From NCBI RefSeq assembly GCF_034009455.1, contig NZ_CP125380.1, positions 6,801,001 through 6,865,000 on the forward strand: DNA of 64,000 nucleotides. Reading direction: 5' to 3'. Both the position numbers and the translations under genes were made by a program. Under the pieces are notes generated by a model. The model was not told the DNA's origin. It did no database searches and saw only the letters and a list, made by a program, of their open reading frames with translations. Shown piece by piece: positions 29,824 to 35,204 of the stretch. The DNA is from Pseudomonas sp. P5_109. GTDB lineage: Bacteria > Pseudomonadota > Gammaproteobacteria > Pseudomonadales > Pseudomonadaceae. Numbering within the stretch: the first letter of the stretch is position 1; the number at the start of each line of letters is the position of its first letter.

Positions 29824-30171
29824 GCGCACAGCCTCGAAAGAAAAATAAACGGCGAGGGCAGTGTAACGGCTAAAACATAGAACGCCACCATCTGCTTTAT
29901 TTCGGAGAAGATGCTGCAATTTTTGACGCTGATGACTACCAAGTCATTGACGAAGCTTCTGCACGCGAGACTTCCGAAGGCTGTGTTTTTCCAGGCGCTT
30001 ACACATTATCAGGAGCGTCGACCCCATCAAGAACCCGACAAATTCACTCACCATGACACTCTCCGACGCCCCTGCCAGGTTAAAGATCCGTGCGCGGAAG
30101 GCTCTGTCGCGTTCCTGCGCACGGCTTATGTCAGGTCACTTCATTCGCATAGCCAGAAGGCCGGTTGGCCG
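29824..30171. other. Island left edge; possible gene remnant at 29874-30056
   Basis: No complete gene. On the plus strand a 60-codon frame without ATG runs from 29874 to a TGA at 30056. Its protein-like text includes YFGEDAAIFDADDYQVIDEA and GCVFPGAYTLSGAS. It may be the 3' remnant of a lost gene at the boundary between core chromosome and island. The remainder shows nothing recognisable. Confidence 0.35.
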
Positions 30172-31122
30172 TTACGCGGTCACCATGTAGCGATAACTCA
30201 CATTGGTCAGCCGCCCATGAATAGCCAGCATCACCTCGGACGCGCCAAGAGTGTTGGTCGGCAAATGCACATAGCGCCGGTTTTCATCCAGATACGCACC
30301 TGGACTACCCACGATATCGACACCGCCCTGCTGATACAGGACGTCACCCGGCGTCTGGGCCTGCACAAATATTTCCGGCAGCCTGATGGGCAGCAAACTG
30401 TTTTGCGCCACATTGCCCAACTCAAAAGTGCCCAAGGCTTGATTGCGGACATTGAGGGTGGTGGTCGAAGGCATGGCATTCAAGACGGTCAGGTCTTCAA
30501 ACCCGTTGCTCTGAACCAACAGGTCTTTGAGGGAGGTCAACCTGGCAAAGGAATCCGGCAGTTTGCCGCACAGGTTATTGTTATTGCCCACGTCGAAGCG
30601 TTCCAGTTTTGTCAGGTTACCGATCGACTCTGGAATACCACCTCTCATAATGCCCAGCGGCGATTGAGAACTCAGGTTCAGGTTGATCAGGCTTGTGAGA
30701 TTTCCGACCCAGTCTGGAATTGATTTGAGTGCGCTGTTGACGAAGTACGCTGACGTCAACTTTGCCAATGTCCCGAAGTCTTCAGGCAGACGAGTGACAA
30801 ATTGTTTTTCTATCATCACGTCCTGCAAGTTGCGCAGATGCCCAATACCTCGCAGGCTGGTGATTTTTATCGGGTCCCCGCTCATCACTCGCAACACCGT
30901 CACTTTATCCAACATGTCCTGCGTTACCGTGTCCTCGATCGTCACCGGCGTGCCCGTGGCCGCTGAAATATGCACGGCCGCCACACGCGCAAATGAAATG
31001 TCGTCAAAGAGAGTTTTGATTGGCGCCGGGATTGTCAGAGGGATCAAAGCCTTTGCAGTTGCAGCGTTCGAGATCATTTCGGTCACCTTGCCAATGTTTA
31101 AAGAGACTCTTTTATAAAACAT
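30172..31122 (-). CDS. Leucine-rich-repeat protein, unknown function
   Basis: This is a 316-residue protein. The start at 31122 has AAAAGGGG on the minus strand 8 bases before the ATG; an upstream in-frame ATG at 31146 lacks one. The centre holds five or six leucine-rich repeats of about 23 residues (LRNLQDVMIEKQFVTRLPED; FGTLAKLTSAYFVNSALKSI; VGNLTSLINLNLSSQSPLGI; IGNLTKLERFDVGNNNNLCG; FARLTSLKDLLVQSNGFEDL), of the plant-like LxxLxxLxxLxLxxN.LxGxIP type. No signal peptide and no catalytic domain are visible. The C-terminal 90 residues are unlike anything I recognise. It is lower in GC than the flanks. It may be an effector or an adaptor; that is inference. Confidence 0.75.
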   Translation of the reverse strand: MFYKRVSLNIGKVTEMISNAATAKALIPLTIPAPIKTLFDDISFARVAAVHISAATGTPVTIEDTVTQDMLDKVTVLRVMSGDPIKITSLRGIGHLRNLQDVMIEKQFVTRLPEDFGTLAKLTSAYFVNSALKSIPDWVGNLTSLINLNLSSQSPLGIMRGGIPESIGNLTKLERFDVGNNNNLCGKLPDSFARLTSLKDLLVQSNGFEDLTVLNAMPSTTTLNVRNQALGTFELGNVAQNSLLPIRLPEIFVQAQTPGDVLYQQGGVDIVGSPGAYLDENRRYVHLPTNTLGASEVMLAIHGRLTNVSYRYMVTA

Positions 31123-31256
31123 CGGCCGACCCCTTTTAACTGTCATAACTGTCAGTTGGTAAGACCCATTTAGAATAATCCGGAGTCGGGCGGCAAAGTG
31201 AACGGCATGCGGTGTCCACTAAAATACAAGCGCCGCTGGCTGGCTCAGTACCGAAC

Positions 31257-31298
31257 AAAAACAAACCTGAACACTGCCAGCAATGTCGGATTTTTCAT
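31257..31298 (+). terminator. Decayed terminator-like sequence
   Basis: AAAAACAAACCTG...CCAGCAATGTCGGATTTTT repeats, with changes, the terminator after the DUF3077 gene (32168). The stem is no longer complementary, so it is probably a relic of an earlier gene copy. Confidence 0.45.
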
Positions 31299-31400
31299 CG
31301 GGCAATCTGCTAATAAGTAACGCTCATCAATCCCAAGATGCGCCTGTGCTCATGCGTGGGAATGCATCCCGTGGCGCTCCTACACCTGTAGAAACACATT

Positions 31401-31440
31401 CCTGTAGGAGCTGCCGAAGGCTGCGATCTTTTGATCTTGC
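31401..31440. repeat. Single REP-like unit (TGTAGGAGCTGCCGAAGGCTGCGATC family)
   Basis: TGTAGGAGCTGCCGAAGGCT followed by GCGATCTTTTGATC, a repetitive sequence I know from P. fluorescens-group genomes. It differs from the main REP families in this window. Confidence 0.6.
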
Positions 31441-31530
31441 ACCTCGCAGACTTCTCGGACATTTCCTTCGCAACGCCGGGGCATGCGTGAACTAGGCGAT
31501 TTTGAACGGTACCGATAACCTCTTTAAGTC

Positions 31531-31695
31531 ACCGCAAAATCGGTGATTCGGACGTGCAAGTCCGATTCAGGTGCACATCGTTGATGGCAATTCACCGAGC
31601 GTTTTCCTATGCTCGCGGATCGTCATGGCGGCTGTGCGTCGGAGACCTTCGGGTCTGCCGGGCACCTGGACCGGTCTTGCACACCAACGCACAGC
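31531..31695 (+). promoter_or_regulatory. Structured leader upstream of the DUF3077 gene
   Basis: Three nested or serial hairpins occur: CGGAC/GTCCG (31549-31564); a 9-bp closing stem GCTGTGCGT (31631-31639) with ACGCACAGC (31687-31695); and inside it AGACC-UUCG-GGUCU (31643-31656), a C(UUCG)G tetraloop, plus GCCGG/CCGGT (31657-31675). The start codon is 65 bases downstream. This looks like a conserved cis-acting RNA, possibly ligand- or protein-binding. The gene-free stretch 31123-31530 otherwise holds only the decayed terminator and the REP unit. Confidence 0.6.
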
Positions 31696-31759
31696 TGCCA
31701 CCTCTTTCGAAGTGCAAAGCGAAACGGTGCCAGCCTCTTAATTCCAGGAAGCGACATCC

Positions 31760-32155
31760 ATGTTCAAACCAACACCCAACCCCCCTGACAACGAAGCCAC
31801 ATCCCCCTGCGAATCTCCCAATTCCAAAGTGACCAATGAAGCGGTCGAATGCACCTTCAACCACCACACCCCCCAAGCCAAACAGAAACAACCGAAACGC
31901 AACGGCCAACTCTTCAGCGTCTGTCCTCACATCAACACTGAAGCACTTCTGGCCAACGCCTCAGAAGATCTGCTCTCCATCAGCGTCATCGCCGCTGACC
32001 TGGCCGATGATGTAGACGGCTCATGCCGTTCGGTTGCCCTGGCGATCAGTCGCATGGCTGACGGCGCGCATTTACTGGTAGAGCAAGCACTGGATCATCT
32101 GGACGAACCGGAAATGGCGGCGATTCTCACCCAGCAAAAAAGCAGAATCATCTGA
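31760..32155 (+). CDS. DUF3077/DUF6124-type small protein
   Basis: The 131-residue protein starts MFKPTPNPPDNEATSPCESP, the very characteristic opening of a multi-copy Pseudomonas family. A variable linker and a C-terminal helical domain follow (FSVCPHINTEALLANASEDL, SVIAADLADDVDG, SRMADGAHLLVEQALDHLD). AGGAAG stands 9 bases before the ATG. The family's function is unknown; members often occur as paralogues near toxin or secretion genes. Here it has a structured leader and its own terminator. Confidence 0.8.
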   Translation: MFKPTPNPPDNEATSPCESPNSKVTNEAVECTFNHHTPQAKQKQPKRNGQLFSVCPHINTEALLANASEDLLSISVIAADLADDVDGSCRSVALAISRMADGAHLLVEQALDHLDEPEMAAILTQQKSRII

Positions 32156-32167
32156 CTCGCAAAGCAG

Positions 32168-32209
32168 AAAAACAAACCCGTTTGATGTCACCAGCAATCG
32201 GGGTTTTCT
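32168..32209 (+). terminator. Terminator after the DUF3077 gene
   Basis: AAAAACAAACCCG (32168) and CGGGGTTTTCT (32199) can pair across a 20-base loop, with a short T-run at the end. The remaining 32210-32447 stretch shows no gene apart from the ribosome site (AGGGAG) of the next gene. Confidence 0.55.
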
Positions 32210-32447
32210 TTGACTGCGCATCACATTGATCGACATCAAATCCCACGTGCCACGACTCTGGGAAAACACCCAAGTGCCAGCTTGGCTCCCTCTTTTGGAC
32301 ATGCAACATTCTGAAATGCAGGAAGTTTCTGACCGTTGCAGGAGAGTCTTCCTACATCACCCCCTCCAATTTCTTGTTAGCGTATTTCGGTCATGGACAC
32401 CGGAGTTACTGGTCCACTAACGGGCGAATTGTCAGGGAGACAATCGA

Positions 32448-33797
32448 ATGCTTTTATGGCGCTTCGTGCCCACGTGGCACGACATTGAAAACCGTATAAC
32501 CCATGAAATGGGTTACCAAGGAGGAGCCAGCTTTCGCACGCATTTCAACGAGCCCGCCCCCTCCCTCTCTCTCAACATCCGCCGAATCAAAAGCGTCAGG
32601 ACTGCGTTCATCCACGCCGAGTGGGAAGCAGGTCGCTTGTTGAGGCAACGCTTCTCTGACATCGACATCTCCAGCATCCTCAACGAGCTGATCGATGTCG
32701 TTACACAAATGGCAATGATCGTCGCCGGCAGTGTGCTGACCGGAGGAGCAATTGGTGCGGGAGTAGGCGCATTCCTCGGAGGGGCAGGTGCCATTCCCAT
32801 GGGTGCCGCTGGCGCCGCAATGGGATTGCAAGTCAGCACCTGGATATTAGGGATACTTGGTCTGACGTCCGTCGCTGAGTTTTTCGTCGAGGGTTTGCCG
32901 CGCATTGGCGAGTATTACCTGACGGGCATCAACATCGCGTGGAAAGGCCCACGTGGCGAGGAAGGGTTGAACCCGTTCAGCCAGGACGATCCTTTTGCCG
33001 AAGGCAGGGCTGCCCATCACATCGCCCTGGGTCATGTGGAAGTTGTCGTCCTGCTGCTGGGCGCCATCGTTGCTTACATCACCCGCGGTCGAGGCAATGC
33101 AAACGTCCTTGCCCAGGAAATGCGAGCAAGCCCCAAAGGGGCACGGCTGGGCGAATGGATGCTCAAACATGAAGATGCACTGAAAAAACGACCAGACCTG
33201 CAAACCGCAGGGCCGCGCAGAGGTGCACTCAGCCCGCAGGAGCCTGCGCCGCCAGCACATCGTCCATCTGGAAAAGACAAAGATGCGCCTCGTGACAAAC
33301 CGAACGCCATGCCGCTTCATAAAGTCGAATGTTTTAAAGCGGACAAGATGCCGGCGTCTAAAATCGGAGAGTTCGAGCGGCAGTTGAAGGGGCAAGAGGA
33401 CGGGCTGAATCGGCTGACGGTGGATGAGTATCTGGAGAATATTGCCAATCCGGTGAAGCGTAGCCGAGCGGCTGCCAAGCAGGCTCGCAACACTTTACAA
33501 ACCAACCTGCAAAGACGGTTCAACGAAGAATTTTTGCAAACGATGGGTGCCAAAGCGGCGAAAGCAGAGAGTATAAAAAAAGTCAAGGAAACAATGTCAA
33601 ACCTTGCGGGGCTGCATAATCCTGATTTGAGTGCCGGCGGCAAAGATATCATTGCGGACTTCGGTGATCGACAAGTCAACTCCAGTATTGGCCCTCAGTG
33701 GAGACCAAAAGTTGCAAGTTTAAAAAATGCTGCGGAAGCAGTACCAACGCCTTTACGTGGGCAAACATATCTCAATGTCAATCTTCATAAATGTTAA
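32448..33797 (+). CDS. Putative T6SS DNase effector, Tde/Ntox15 type, with glycine-zipper N-terminus
   Basis: This is a 449-residue protein. Residues 1-80 begin MLLWRFVPTWHDIENRITHE, an N-terminal domain I associate with Pseudomonas polymorphic toxins (DUF6861-like). Residues 92-128 are a glycine zipper (GAIGAGVGAFLGGAGAIP, GAAGAAMG), as in Agrobacterium Tde1, where it carries the toxin across the target membrane. A further hydrophobic stretch is at 195-212, and a Pro/Lys-rich linker at 255-290. The C-terminal toxin (about 293-449) has NRLTVDEYLENIANPVKR, the HxxD motif H390-N-P-D393 in LHNPDLSAGGKD, then FGDRQVNSSIGPQW, typical of Ntox15 DNases. An AGGGAG ribosome site and adjacent Tdi-like immunity genes support the call. 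No VgrG or PAAR is nearby. Confidence 0.8.
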   Translation: MLLWRFVPTWHDIENRITHEMGYQGGASFRTHFNEPAPSLSLNIRRIKSVRTAFIHAEWEAGRLLRQRFSDIDISSILNELIDVVTQMAMIVAGSVLTGGAIGAGVGAFLGGAGAIPMGAAGAAMGLQVSTWILGILGLTSVAEFFVEGLPRIGEYYLTGINIAWKGPRGEEGLNPFSQDDPFAEGRAAHHIALGHVEVVVLLLGAIVAYITRGRGNANVLAQEMRASPKGARLGEWMLKHEDALKKRPDLQTAGPRRGALSPQEPAPPAHRPSGKDKDAPRDKPNAMPLHKVECFKADKMPASKIGEFERQLKGQEDGLNRLTVDEYLENIANPVKRSRAAAKQARNTLQTNLQRRFNEEFLQTMGAKAAKAESIKKVKETMSNLAGLHNPDLSAGGKDIIADFGDRQVNSSIGPQWRPKVASLKNAAEAVPTPLRGQTYLNVNLHKC

Positions 33798-33808
33798 GGA
33801 GAAAAAGA

Positions 33809-34426
33809 ATGGATGAGACATTTTCCGTTTTTTTGGAGACGCTTGGCAGGCCCATTGATCGTCAAGAAGTACCGGTTTCAAGTATCGAACGCTACAGGGG
33901 CAAGCTGCCCAATCAATTGCTGGAGTACTGGGCCGAGCACGGCTGGTGTGGTTACGGCAATGGGATTTTTTGGATAGTGAATCCTCAGGAATACGAAGGG
34001 GTCGTAGCGTCCTGGCTTGAGGGGACGAAGTTTGAAGCCATTGATACCTACCACCTGATTGCTCGCAGCGCCTTTGGCGATTTGTACCTCTGGGGTGAAA
34101 AAACGGGAGCCTCCCTCGATATAACAAGCCACCTTTCTCGTTACGCCACACACACGTCTATATACACAGGAGAGCAAATGGGTAAGGGGCTTCAGGCCTT
34201 CCTGTTGTCGATCGAAGTGGACTCCAACGATTATGGCGATCTGTTCAAACCCGCGAAGAAAAAGCTCGGCACCCTGCGTCACGACGAAATGTACGGTTTT
34301 GTTCCAGCGCTGATGTTCGGCGGCCCGGATACTCTCGATCATCTGGAGAAGGTGAAGGCGGTGGAGCATCTGATCCTGCTGTCTCAGATCACCGAGCTTC
34401 AGCCCTATAGTTTCTCAGACCTTTAA
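33809..34426 (+). CDS. Tdi-like immunity protein (GAD-like + DUF1851), first copy
   Basis: This is a 205-residue protein. The start at 33809 follows TAAGGAG, which overlaps the toxin stop, so toxin and immunity gene are translationally linked. The N-terminal GAD-like part (RQEVPVSSIERYRGKLPNQL, LLEYWAEHGWCGYGNGIFWI) and the C-terminal DUF1851 part (KKLGTLRHDEMYGFVPALMF, GGPDTLDHLEKVKAVEHL) are the domains of Tdi proteins that block Tde DNases in the cytoplasm. It should protect the producer and its kin from the upstream effector. Its GC content is lower than that of core genes. Confidence 0.85.
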   Translation: MDETFSVFLETLGRPIDRQEVPVSSIERYRGKLPNQLLEYWAEHGWCGYGNGIFWIVNPQEYEGVVASWLEGTKFEAIDTYHLIARSAFGDLYLWGEKTGASLDITSHLSRYATHTSIYTGEQMGKGLQAFLLSIEVDSNDYGDLFKPAKKKLGTLRHDEMYGFVPALMFGGPDTLDHLEKVKAVEHLILLSQITELQPYSFSDL

Positions 34427-34499
34427 GGCTGGTATCAGGAAGCAGATCTCAATGAAATTACCGATCAGTGAGCTGATGCTTAAAAAGAGAAGGTTTCGC

Positions 34500-35117
34500 G
34501 TGGACAAAATATTTGCCCGGTTTTTAGAGAAATTTGGCGGACCTGTTGATCGACAGGAAGTCCCAGCGTCAAGTATCGAGCGCTATAGAGGCAAGCTACC
34601 CAATCAGTTATTGGAATACTGGGCCGAACACGGCTGGTGCGGTTACGGTGACGGCATTTTTTGGATAGTGAACCCCCAGGAATACGATGGGGTAGTTGCG
34701 TCTTGGCTTGTAGGCACGAAATATGAAGAGCGTGATGCTTACCACTTGATTGCTCGTAGCGCATTTGGCGACTTGTACCTCTGGGGTGAAAAAACGGGAG
34801 CCTCTCTTAAAATAACTAGCGTGCTTTCTCGATGTGTTTTTAGTAATTTCGAAATTACGAGTGAAGAGATGGACAGAGAACTACAAGGTTTTCTGCTTTC
34901 CAGGAATGTCGACTCCAACGACTATGGCGACCTGTTCAAACCCGCAAAGAAAAAGCTTGGCACCCTACGCCACGACGAAATGTACGGCTTTGTTCCAGCG
35001 CTGATGTTCGGCGGCCCGGACACCCTCGATCATCTAGAGAAGGTGAAGGCGGTGGAGCATCTGCTCCTGCTGTCTCAAATTACCGAACTTAAGCCCTACA
35101 GTTTTTCAGACCTTTAA
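34500..35117 (+). CDS. Tdi-like immunity protein, tandem paralogue
   Basis: The GTG at 34500, preceded by GAGAAGG, gives 205 residues, exactly the length of the first copy and aligned without gaps. The ATG at 34452 would add 16 unmatched residues. Identity to the first copy is about 82% by my count (36 differences). Half of them lie in residues 104-137, while the last 60 residues differ at only two positions. This suggests duplication with partial gene conversion and selection on one contact patch, perhaps giving immunity to a different Tde variant. A strong terminator follows. Confidence 0.82.
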   Translation: MDKIFARFLEKFGGPVDRQEVPASSIERYRGKLPNQLLEYWAEHGWCGYGDGIFWIVNPQEYDGVVASWLVGTKYEERDAYHLIARSAFGDLYLWGEKTGASLKITSVLSRCVFSNFEITSEEMDRELQGFLLSRNVDSNDYGDLFKPAKKKLGTLRHDEMYGFVPALMFGGPDTLDHLEKVKAVEHLLLLSQITELKPYSFSDL

Positions 35118-35163
35118 GCCAGATTTCAGGGAGGCGGATTTCAACGAATTCTGTTAACCCCAC

Positions 35164-35204
35164 AAAAAATGGGCACCCAACCCTGGTTGGCGTGCCCATT
35201 TTTT
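35164..35204. terminator. Bidirectional terminator at the island's right edge
   Basis: AAAAAATGGGCACCCAACC and GGTTGGCGTGCCCATTTTTT form a long stem (one mismatch/bulge) that can end both the immunity transcript (+) and the HU transcript (-). Confidence 0.92.

Follow-up and report, generated by a model that had tools for sequence, protein, structure and literature searches.

The locus and its effector

The DNA analyzed here, called the window below, is a stretch of 64,000 nucleotides from Pseudomonas sp. P5_109 (contig NZ_CP125380.1, positions 6,801,001 to 6,865,000 of the forward strand). It carries a gene for a 449-amino-acid (aa) protein in which an N-terminal DUF6861 domain is joined to a C-terminal Ntox15 nuclease domain, followed by two Tdi-type immunity genes; the protein is a predicted orphan effector of a type VI secretion system (T6SS). 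Its features are as follows (window coordinates).

32448..33797, + strand: effector, 449 aa, DUF6861-Ntox15 (open reading frame (ORF) list and Pfam)
32595..33173, + strand: DUF6861 domain, residues 50–242, predicted delivery/translocation domain (Pfam, 2.4e-66)
32721..32831, + strand: glycine-zipper hydrophobic stretch, residues 92–128, with G99xxxG103xxxG107 (alignment; low predicted local distance difference test (pLDDT) in AlphaFold2)
33360..33785, + strand: Ntox15 nuclease domain, residues 305–446 (Pfam, 2.7e-27)
33615..33626, + strand: predicted catalytic HxxD, H390-N-P-D393 (alignment with Ntox15 relatives and PDB)
33809..34426 (ORF opens at 33791), + strand: immunity gene 1, Tdi type, 205 aa (Pfam; 8g0k_B 3.5e-11, 6itw 9.7e-9)
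34500..35117 (ORF opens at 34452), + strand: immunity gene 2, Tdi type, 205 aa, paralogue of gene 1 (Pfam)

A sequence-only reading of this DNA had proposed a 449-residue DNase effector of the Ntox15/Tde class with an HxxD motif and a DUF6861-like N-terminus, followed by two genes, and profile searches bear it out. The three ORFs lie where it had placed them, and against Pfam the effector scores 223 bits for DUF6861 (cut-off 28) and 96.1 bits for Ntox15 (curated cut-off 22.5). The toxin sequence matches PDB entry 8fzz (4.6e-19), and also 8fzy and 8g0k. H390-N-P-D393 aligns to HNPD of 8fzz and to ANPA of 8fzy, and is conserved in the Ntox15 rows of the alignment. Passages of PMC10470768 identify HxxD as the active site and describe a crystallized H279A/D282A mutant. 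Because of this alignment and the active-site role reported there, DNase chemistry is well predicted for the effector.

The glycine-rich stretch noticed earlier at residues 92–128 proved to be strictly conserved, with Gly 99, 103, 107, 112, 122 and 126 invariant in all 36 aligned DUF6861 proteins from both lineages described below (types A and B). AlphaFold2 models show a helical domain, with pLDDT below 50 at the glycine stretch (approximately residues 100–125). In the alignment, both lineages also conserve a short motif near the N-terminus (around P8, W10 and E14), a candidate for docking. No PAAR or prePAAR domain was detected in the effector at E ≤ 1 (Pfam), and NCBIfam returned no meaningful family for it. 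Many of the matches listed in a search with residues 1–285 are homologues of 446–449 aa that carry both domains, at 98% to ~65% identity over this region.

Immunity genes

Both downstream ORFs contain a GAD-like domain (168 bits) and a T6SS_Tdi1_C domain (81 bits; Pfam), and the first is related to 8g0k_B and to 6itw, which is Agrobacterium Atu4351. The PDB relatives of the immunity protein bear the name DUF1851, the former name of T6SS_Tdi1_C, and the earlier description of two GAD-like/DUF1851 immunity genes stands. The listed ORFs open upstream of what are probably the true starts, ATG 33809 and GTG 34500, as judged from ribosome-binding sites seen by eye and the 205-aa length of many relatives. 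Against the NCBIfam TaeI-family immunity model, the two genes score 176–178 bits, far under the cut-off of 450. The paralogues diverge most near the N-terminus and at residues 103–136. When copy 1 was aligned with 99 Tdi relatives from the compared loci (100 rows), residues 111–120 have the highest mean entropy of all ten-residue blocks (2.7 bits). This variable stretch is the best candidate for the region that may determine specificity.

An orphan and mobile module

No T6SS gene accompanies the effector: none of 31 T6SS query proteins matched the 64-kb window (tblastn, E ≤ 1e-3). The queries were taken from the two T6SS clusters of this genome and comprised Tss, Hcp, VgrG, PAAR, DUF4123, adaptor proteins and the front part of Rhs; TssC, Hcp, VgrG, Rhs and the adaptors were profile-checked, and the Tss proteins were mostly named by gene order and similarity. 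The sequence-only reading, which had seen no VgrG, PAAR, Tap/DUF4123 or tss gene nearby and expected the secretion hardware elsewhere, was thus right on both points, as the genome search located tssC at 2.75 and 2.94 Mb and the module lies at 6.83 Mb. DUF4123 genes occur at 0.40, 0.73, 2.94 and 6.55 Mb, the last being nearest to the module. A census of VgrG by PF13296 found two (1.80 and 4.54 Mb) and is incomplete, since it missed the VgrGs of the two clusters (2.76, 2.94 and 2.96 Mb).

Genome alignment with close relatives delimits the module, and a possible terminator lies just beyond it.

32173..35158, no strand: module that close relative G276 lacks with exactly these limits (empty site; genome alignment)
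35164..35204, + strand: inverted repeat followed by T-rich DNA, possible terminator (sequence; missed by the consensus terminator scan)

The corresponding region of G276 (99% RecG identity) aligns to window positions 31774–32172 and resumes at 35159, and G243 (also 99% RecG identity) lacks 29947–35158. Lying between recG/HDOD and the HU gene, the module is thus a mobile unit that a genome either has or lacks. The recG-side site is also occupied by related modules in five of the compared loci (L037, L038, L040, L041 and L045). The GC content drops from 57% over the DUF6861 half to 48% over the toxin half, with 49–52% for the immunity genes and 60% for the window, as would be expected if the toxin–immunity part were exchanged as a cassette.

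DUF6861 as a domain shared among toxins

The distribution of DUF6861 was analyzed in 398 Pseudomonas genomes, 44 of which have a match over the cut-off. We compared 80 regions, the locus described here included, with ~10 kb on each side and less at contig ends. These gave 90 DUF6861 ORFs including fragments, and in 74 of them the C-terminus was of sufficient length for typing; up to six DUF6861 matches, again including fragments, were found per genome. The typed C-termini fall into 12 BLAST clusters, with 39 Ntox15 proteins followed by clusters of 9, 9, 4, 4, 2 and 2 and five singles. A Pfam scan of 20 proteins (at least one per cluster plus seven database proteins; E ≤ 0.01) named five clusters, namely Ntox15, ART, Ntox46, Gln_amidase and WHH, while the other seven show DUF6861 only; EndoU was present in two of the seven database proteins. 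In the search with residues 1–285, 106 of the 120 listed matches (298 in all) carry Ntox15, the other 14 have EndoU, Gln_amidase, ParB-like or no further named domain, and all organisms named among these 120 are Pseudomonas. Conversely, the 44 DUF6861 genomes contain 52 Ntox15 matches, 42 of them no more than 1.5 kb away from a DUF6861 match. The remaining ten include a separate 448-aa frame (G215), several short or broken pieces and a match inside a 3134-aa open frame (G031:C32:257959-258405). The last is another context for delivery, and G031 has a DUF6861-Ntox15 gene as well.

Several C-termini resemble known T6SS toxins. The Ntox46 type is Tse6-like (4zv4, 1.4e-54) and is followed by a Tsi6 relative (4zv0_B, 3.7e-23). 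The ART type matches the PAAR-protein toxin of 6drh/6dre (3.3e-48), and the class of genes found next to it matches the hydrolase chain of that PDB entry (2.3e-139); we take this toxin and hydrolase to be Tre1 and Tri1. The neighboring immunity gene tracks the toxin, being a Tri1-type hydrolase for 4/4 ART genes, class c3 for 8/9 genes of cluster 1 and Tsi6-type for 2/4 Ntox46 genes; behind cluster 2 the picture is mixed, with several different small genes. The named toxin types act in the cytoplasm. FIX effectors likewise carry cytoplasm-acting toxins, according to passages of PMC12135965.

Judged by these comparisons, DUF6861 is an N-terminal domain shuffled among toxins. It is also nearly confined to Pseudomonas, as had been suspected: among 369 genomes of the class, three exceed the cut-off, namely this one, a distant match at 65 bits and a borderline match at 28.4 bits. 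The 65-bit match, a 303-aa ORF (L214, G707:C4), is the only clear relative outside the genus in this sample. Searches of the open-licence PMC literature found no mention of DUF6861 or PF21724; the front domain thus appears undescribed, whereas Ntox15 T6SS effectors and Tdi immunity are already known.

Two lineages and a K1-like T6SS

Profiles split the DUF6861 ORFs into type A (55, including the effector described here) and type B (35). In the compared stretches, T6SS genes accompany 18 of 32 type B loci, and in all 18 the best matches are to the proteins of one cluster of this genome, here called K1-like (VgrG 65–74% and Tss 80–99% identity). In these loci, type B sits between tssA and the VgrG-adaptor-adaptor-Rhs operon and points away from VgrG in 17 of 18. 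P. putida K1-T6SS (group 4B) has the same layout, as described in passages of PMC5363822 and PMC9993120. The TssC at 2.75 Mb is 93–99% identical to 11 TssC proteins encoded beside type B and 43% identical to the other TssC of this genome.

The K1-like cluster of this genome, at 2.735–2.767 Mb, shows the expected order of VgrG, two DUF1795-type adaptors and a PAAR-Rhs effector: VgrG is joined by a weak DcrB match (18.9 bits, under the cut-off of 27.2), a DcrB match of 123 bits and a protein with prePAAR_I, PAAR, Rhs and Tox-SHH. Excerpts of PMC9020831 concern Rhs effectors. The name K1-like reflects gene content and descriptions in papers.

One of the type A loci, L075 (G146:C33:280400-300399), holds a type A Ntox15 effector and four Tdi genes at a distance of ~6 kb from a K1-like cluster, on its hcp side; its hcp and TagP-like gene are 84% and 79% identical to the K1-like ones of this genome, and a K1-like TssC lies on the same contig.

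Presence of the K1-like T6SS across the genus sample follows DUF6861. K1-like TssC was defined at ≥ 87% identity, which gave 45 genomes with a clear gap to the next group (≤ 62%), and the other TssC type was counted at E ≤ 1e-170. K1-like TssC is present in 36 of 44 DUF6861 genomes and in 9 of 354 others (odds ratio (OR) 172, p 6e-35). For the type A and B counts, G037, whose match lies at a contig end, was included manually, and G379, whose pieces fall outside the compared regions, was left out. Genomes with type A have it in 30/36 cases versus 15/362 (OR 116), and those with type A and no type B in 12/17 versus 33/381 (OR 25, p 4e-9). The type A figures are the informative ones, since co-occurrence with type B is nearly built in. 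A Pagel test on a recG tree favored dependent evolution (likelihood ratio 25.8, p 3.4e-5), with DUF6861 gain rates of 1.34 with K1 and 0.17 without; this is a single-gene tree of 79 genomes (52 with either trait and 27 without; G335 had no recG match) and its sample is enriched for carriers.

The VgrG side of the K1-like cluster also hosts other proteins. The K1 regions of nine genomes with K1-like TssC and no DUF6861, together with that of G182, were compared, and no DUF6861 was found in them; three had no VgrG within the stretch. In four (L225–L228), a family of 341–374-aa hydrophobic, glycine-rich proteins (57–91% mutual identity) is encoded divergently from VgrG, and in L229 and L234 a gene of another, unrelated hydrophobic family (36%) precedes VgrG in the same orientation. 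This genome has a member of the latter family as well (38–46% identity), a 357-aa glycine-rich hydrophobic protein (2756436-2757509; L131:1437-2507, + strand) upstream of and co-oriented with VgrG. Pfam gave no family for two such proteins scanned, this one included; they are possible further T6SS effectors. Because such families fill the VgrG-side place elsewhere, DUF6861 looks like one of several cargoes for a K1-like spike. Toxin-less immunity-type genes occur in these regions too: the K1-like cluster of this genome contains a c3-type gene without a toxin (2755730–2756047) that shares 79% identity with a gene next to a type B DUF6861 ORF, and the DUF6861-free region L234 (G026:C49:139000-158900) bears a long array of Tsi6-, Tri1-, c3- and c13-type immunity genes.

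We also considered the K1 EagR-like gene (L131:5860-6456) as a DUF6861-specific adaptor and rejected it on its distribution. It is found in 38 of 45 K1 genomes (E ≤ 1e-10) and does not behave as a dedicated adaptor, because six of the nine K1 genomes without DUF6861 have it and four with both K1 and DUF6861 (G182, G094, G379 and G288) lack it.

A model of delivery and its alternatives

Toxin swapping, the T6SS linkage of the sister lineage, the co-occurrence with K1 and the restriction to three of 369 class genomes together give strong indirect support to DUF6861 as a putative loading part that is nearly Pseudomonas-specific. We consider it likely that the protein is an orphan Ntox15 effector delivered by the K1-like T6SS through DUF6861, aided by its zipper in crossing membranes, held in check by Tdi proteins and carried on a mobile module. 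In such a scheme, the DUF6861 region (residues 1–250) would dock the protein on the K1-like spike, either by itself or via a shared adaptor, and the K1-like T6SS encoded at 2.74–2.77 Mb would fire an effector made from 6.83 Mb. The invariant glycine zipper and hydrophobic helices may help the toxin across the prey inner membrane, by analogy with Tde1 GxxxG; the Ntox15 domain, a predicted Mg-dependent DNase of the Tde class, would then kill the competing bacterium, and the two Tdi proteins would shield the producer and its kin. More generally, the DUF6861 front half is joined to many other Pseudomonas toxins too and is probably what loads them onto, and sends them through, a particular T6SS. 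We lean, with some hesitation, towards a stronger form in which DUF6861 would be a new delivery-and-translocation domain dedicated to the K1-like (group 4B) T6SS, one that replaces a PAAR/transmembrane front and lets effectors roam as type A cassettes.

Several results weigh against this model. Fold comparison of the AlphaFold2 models gave no clear match to a known fold and supported no known loading or pore domain. In the compared stretches, 43 of 47 type A loci lack any T6SS gene, and of the four that have one, L033 and L034 lie beside the other T6SS type and L046 has a lone VgrG ~7 kb from the type A gene. We saw no adaptor gene moving together with type A in the compared loci, and the EagR-like gene is missing from the four genomes named above. 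Independent pairs pointed in the expected direction without reaching significance (~4.9 same, 0.7 opposite and 6.3 without difference; median p 0.22). K1-like TssC is absent from five of the 17 type-A-only genomes, which implies that K1 is not strictly required or that another T6SS can serve.

These five genomes would also fit an effector of the Tde class that leaves by the other widespread T6SS (2.93–2.97 Mb here), or by any T6SS, through Tap (DUF4123) and VgrG, the K1 link reflecting shared ancestry. The other cluster of this genome does have a DUF4123 gene, and in G371 and G131 type A is divergent to tssA of the other T6SS, whose TssC is 92% identical to that of this genome. Both genomes also have K1 and are sisters in the recG tree, so the arrangement may be one event. 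The other TssC type is rarer in DUF6861 genomes (21/44 versus 254/354, OR 0.36), is missing from 17 of 36 type A genomes and shows no bias either way for type A without B (11/17 versus 264/381, OR 0.81); we therefore regard this route as unlikely. A different possibility, which we consider improbable, is that the DUF6861 half is itself a pore-forming toxin, giving the protein two toxic activities in a colicin-like arrangement rather than one loaded through DUF6861. Its hydrophobic helices and invariant GxxxG would suit such a role, the N-terminus of Tde1 contributes growth inhibition that does not depend on the DNase and such motifs occur in Tse4 (passages of PMC10240207), and in six K1 genomes without DUF6861 the VgrG-side place is taken by the glycine-rich hydrophobic proteins described above, four divergent and two co-oriented. 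Against this, the neighboring immunity genes follow the C-terminal toxin and not DUF6861, apart from the mixed cluster 2, and the DUF6861 loci showed no further class of immunity gene shared by them all.

The abundance of immunity genes raises the question of whether the module is mainly defensive, an immunity array acquired with a toxin that is no longer delivered. Two diverged Tdi paralogues are present here and up to six in relatives (L063), and the toxin-less immunity-type genes of the K1 regions, the c3-type gene of this genome and the array of L234, are of a similar kind; however, the effector ORF is not truncated, its HxxD is intact and both domains are kept in many of the listed 446–449-aa homologues, which argues for selection on the whole protein and makes a mainly protective role quite improbable. 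Export by a non-T6SS route, such as a bacteriocin or another contractile injection system, is an explanation to which we give very little credence: type A genes are mostly orphan and T6SS export of DUF6861 proteins is predicted only, whereas more than half of the type B loci lie in K1-like T6SS regions, co-occurrence with this T6SS subtype is strong and type B proteins use toxin–immunity pairs known from T6SS. Delivery by the K1-like T6SS remains the reading we prefer.

Relation to known systems and significance

The effector is close in plan to the Agrobacterium Tde1/Tde2–Tdi pairs, which share the C-terminal Ntox15 HxxD, an N-terminal glycine-zipper stretch and related immunity (6itw). In passages of PMC10240207, Tde1 is a 278-aa protein loaded by Tap1 onto VgrG1, and its GxxxG helps the toxin cross the prey inner membrane. 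The N-terminal GxxxG common to Tde1 and our 449-aa effector is a likeness by motif; here the N-terminus is DUF6861, and the window has no linked tap (DUF4123) or vgrG. Bacteroidales Tde1/Tdi1 (8fzy, 8fzz and 8g0k) resemble the present pair in toxin and immunity homology, HxxD and orphan Tdi arrays, but Tde1 is fused to Hcp there (passages of PMC10470768), in contrast to the DUF6861 fusion at an orphan locus.

P. putida tke1, as passages of PMC5363822 and PMC9993120 describe it, lies in the K1 cluster, lacks PAAR or MIX and has a Tse6-like C-terminus. A DUF6861-Ntox46 (Tse6-like) gene within a K1-like cluster (L085) is similarly placed, and by analogy we predict that Tke1 is a DUF6861 protein; the other three DUF6861-Ntox46 loci (L110, L112 and L114) have no T6SS gene alongside. 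Unlike Tke1, the effector described here is an orphan Ntox15 member. Contact-independent entry is reportedly a property of Tce1, a T6SS nuclease of Yersinia pseudotuberculosis. A table in PMC9990079, as excerpted, lists Tce1 with Ntox15 and gives the host as P. putida.

As with MIX, RIX, PIX, WHIX and FIX, where one N-terminal domain shuffled among toxins defines a class (passages of PMC12135965), DUF6861 proteins would form a T6SS secretion-domain effector class; DUF6861 differs in being a separate Pfam family, nearly confined to Pseudomonas, whose secretion is predicted only. Nothing beside an orphan T6SS effector names its machine, which makes such effectors difficult to spot; DUF6861, common to VgrG-linked and orphan genes, would mark them, flagging 44 of 398 genomes; seven of its 12 C-terminal types carry no Pfam toxin annotation. 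The system also makes testable how a mid-sized toxin is loaded and crosses the inner membrane without PAAR, Tap or an Hcp fusion, since Tse6-type, Tre1-type and Tde-type toxins exist with different front parts. If the model is correct, effectors leave the T6SS cluster as small mobile cassettes yet still use the K1 machine.

Other observations at the locus

A promoter and terminator scan of the locus gave nothing above shuffles, and PADLOC returned only a weak JetC match (E 0.0048). Upstream of the module, 30172–31146 (− strand) encodes a 324-aa leucine-rich-repeat (LRR) protein (Pfam LRR_14, 3.4e-13) that falls far under the cut-off of the NCBIfam LRR effector models. Adjoining the module, 31760–32155 (+ strand) encodes a DUF6124 protein (1.7e-24); seven of the compared DUF6861 loci contribute to its BLAST cluster, and these represent more than one site on the chromosome.

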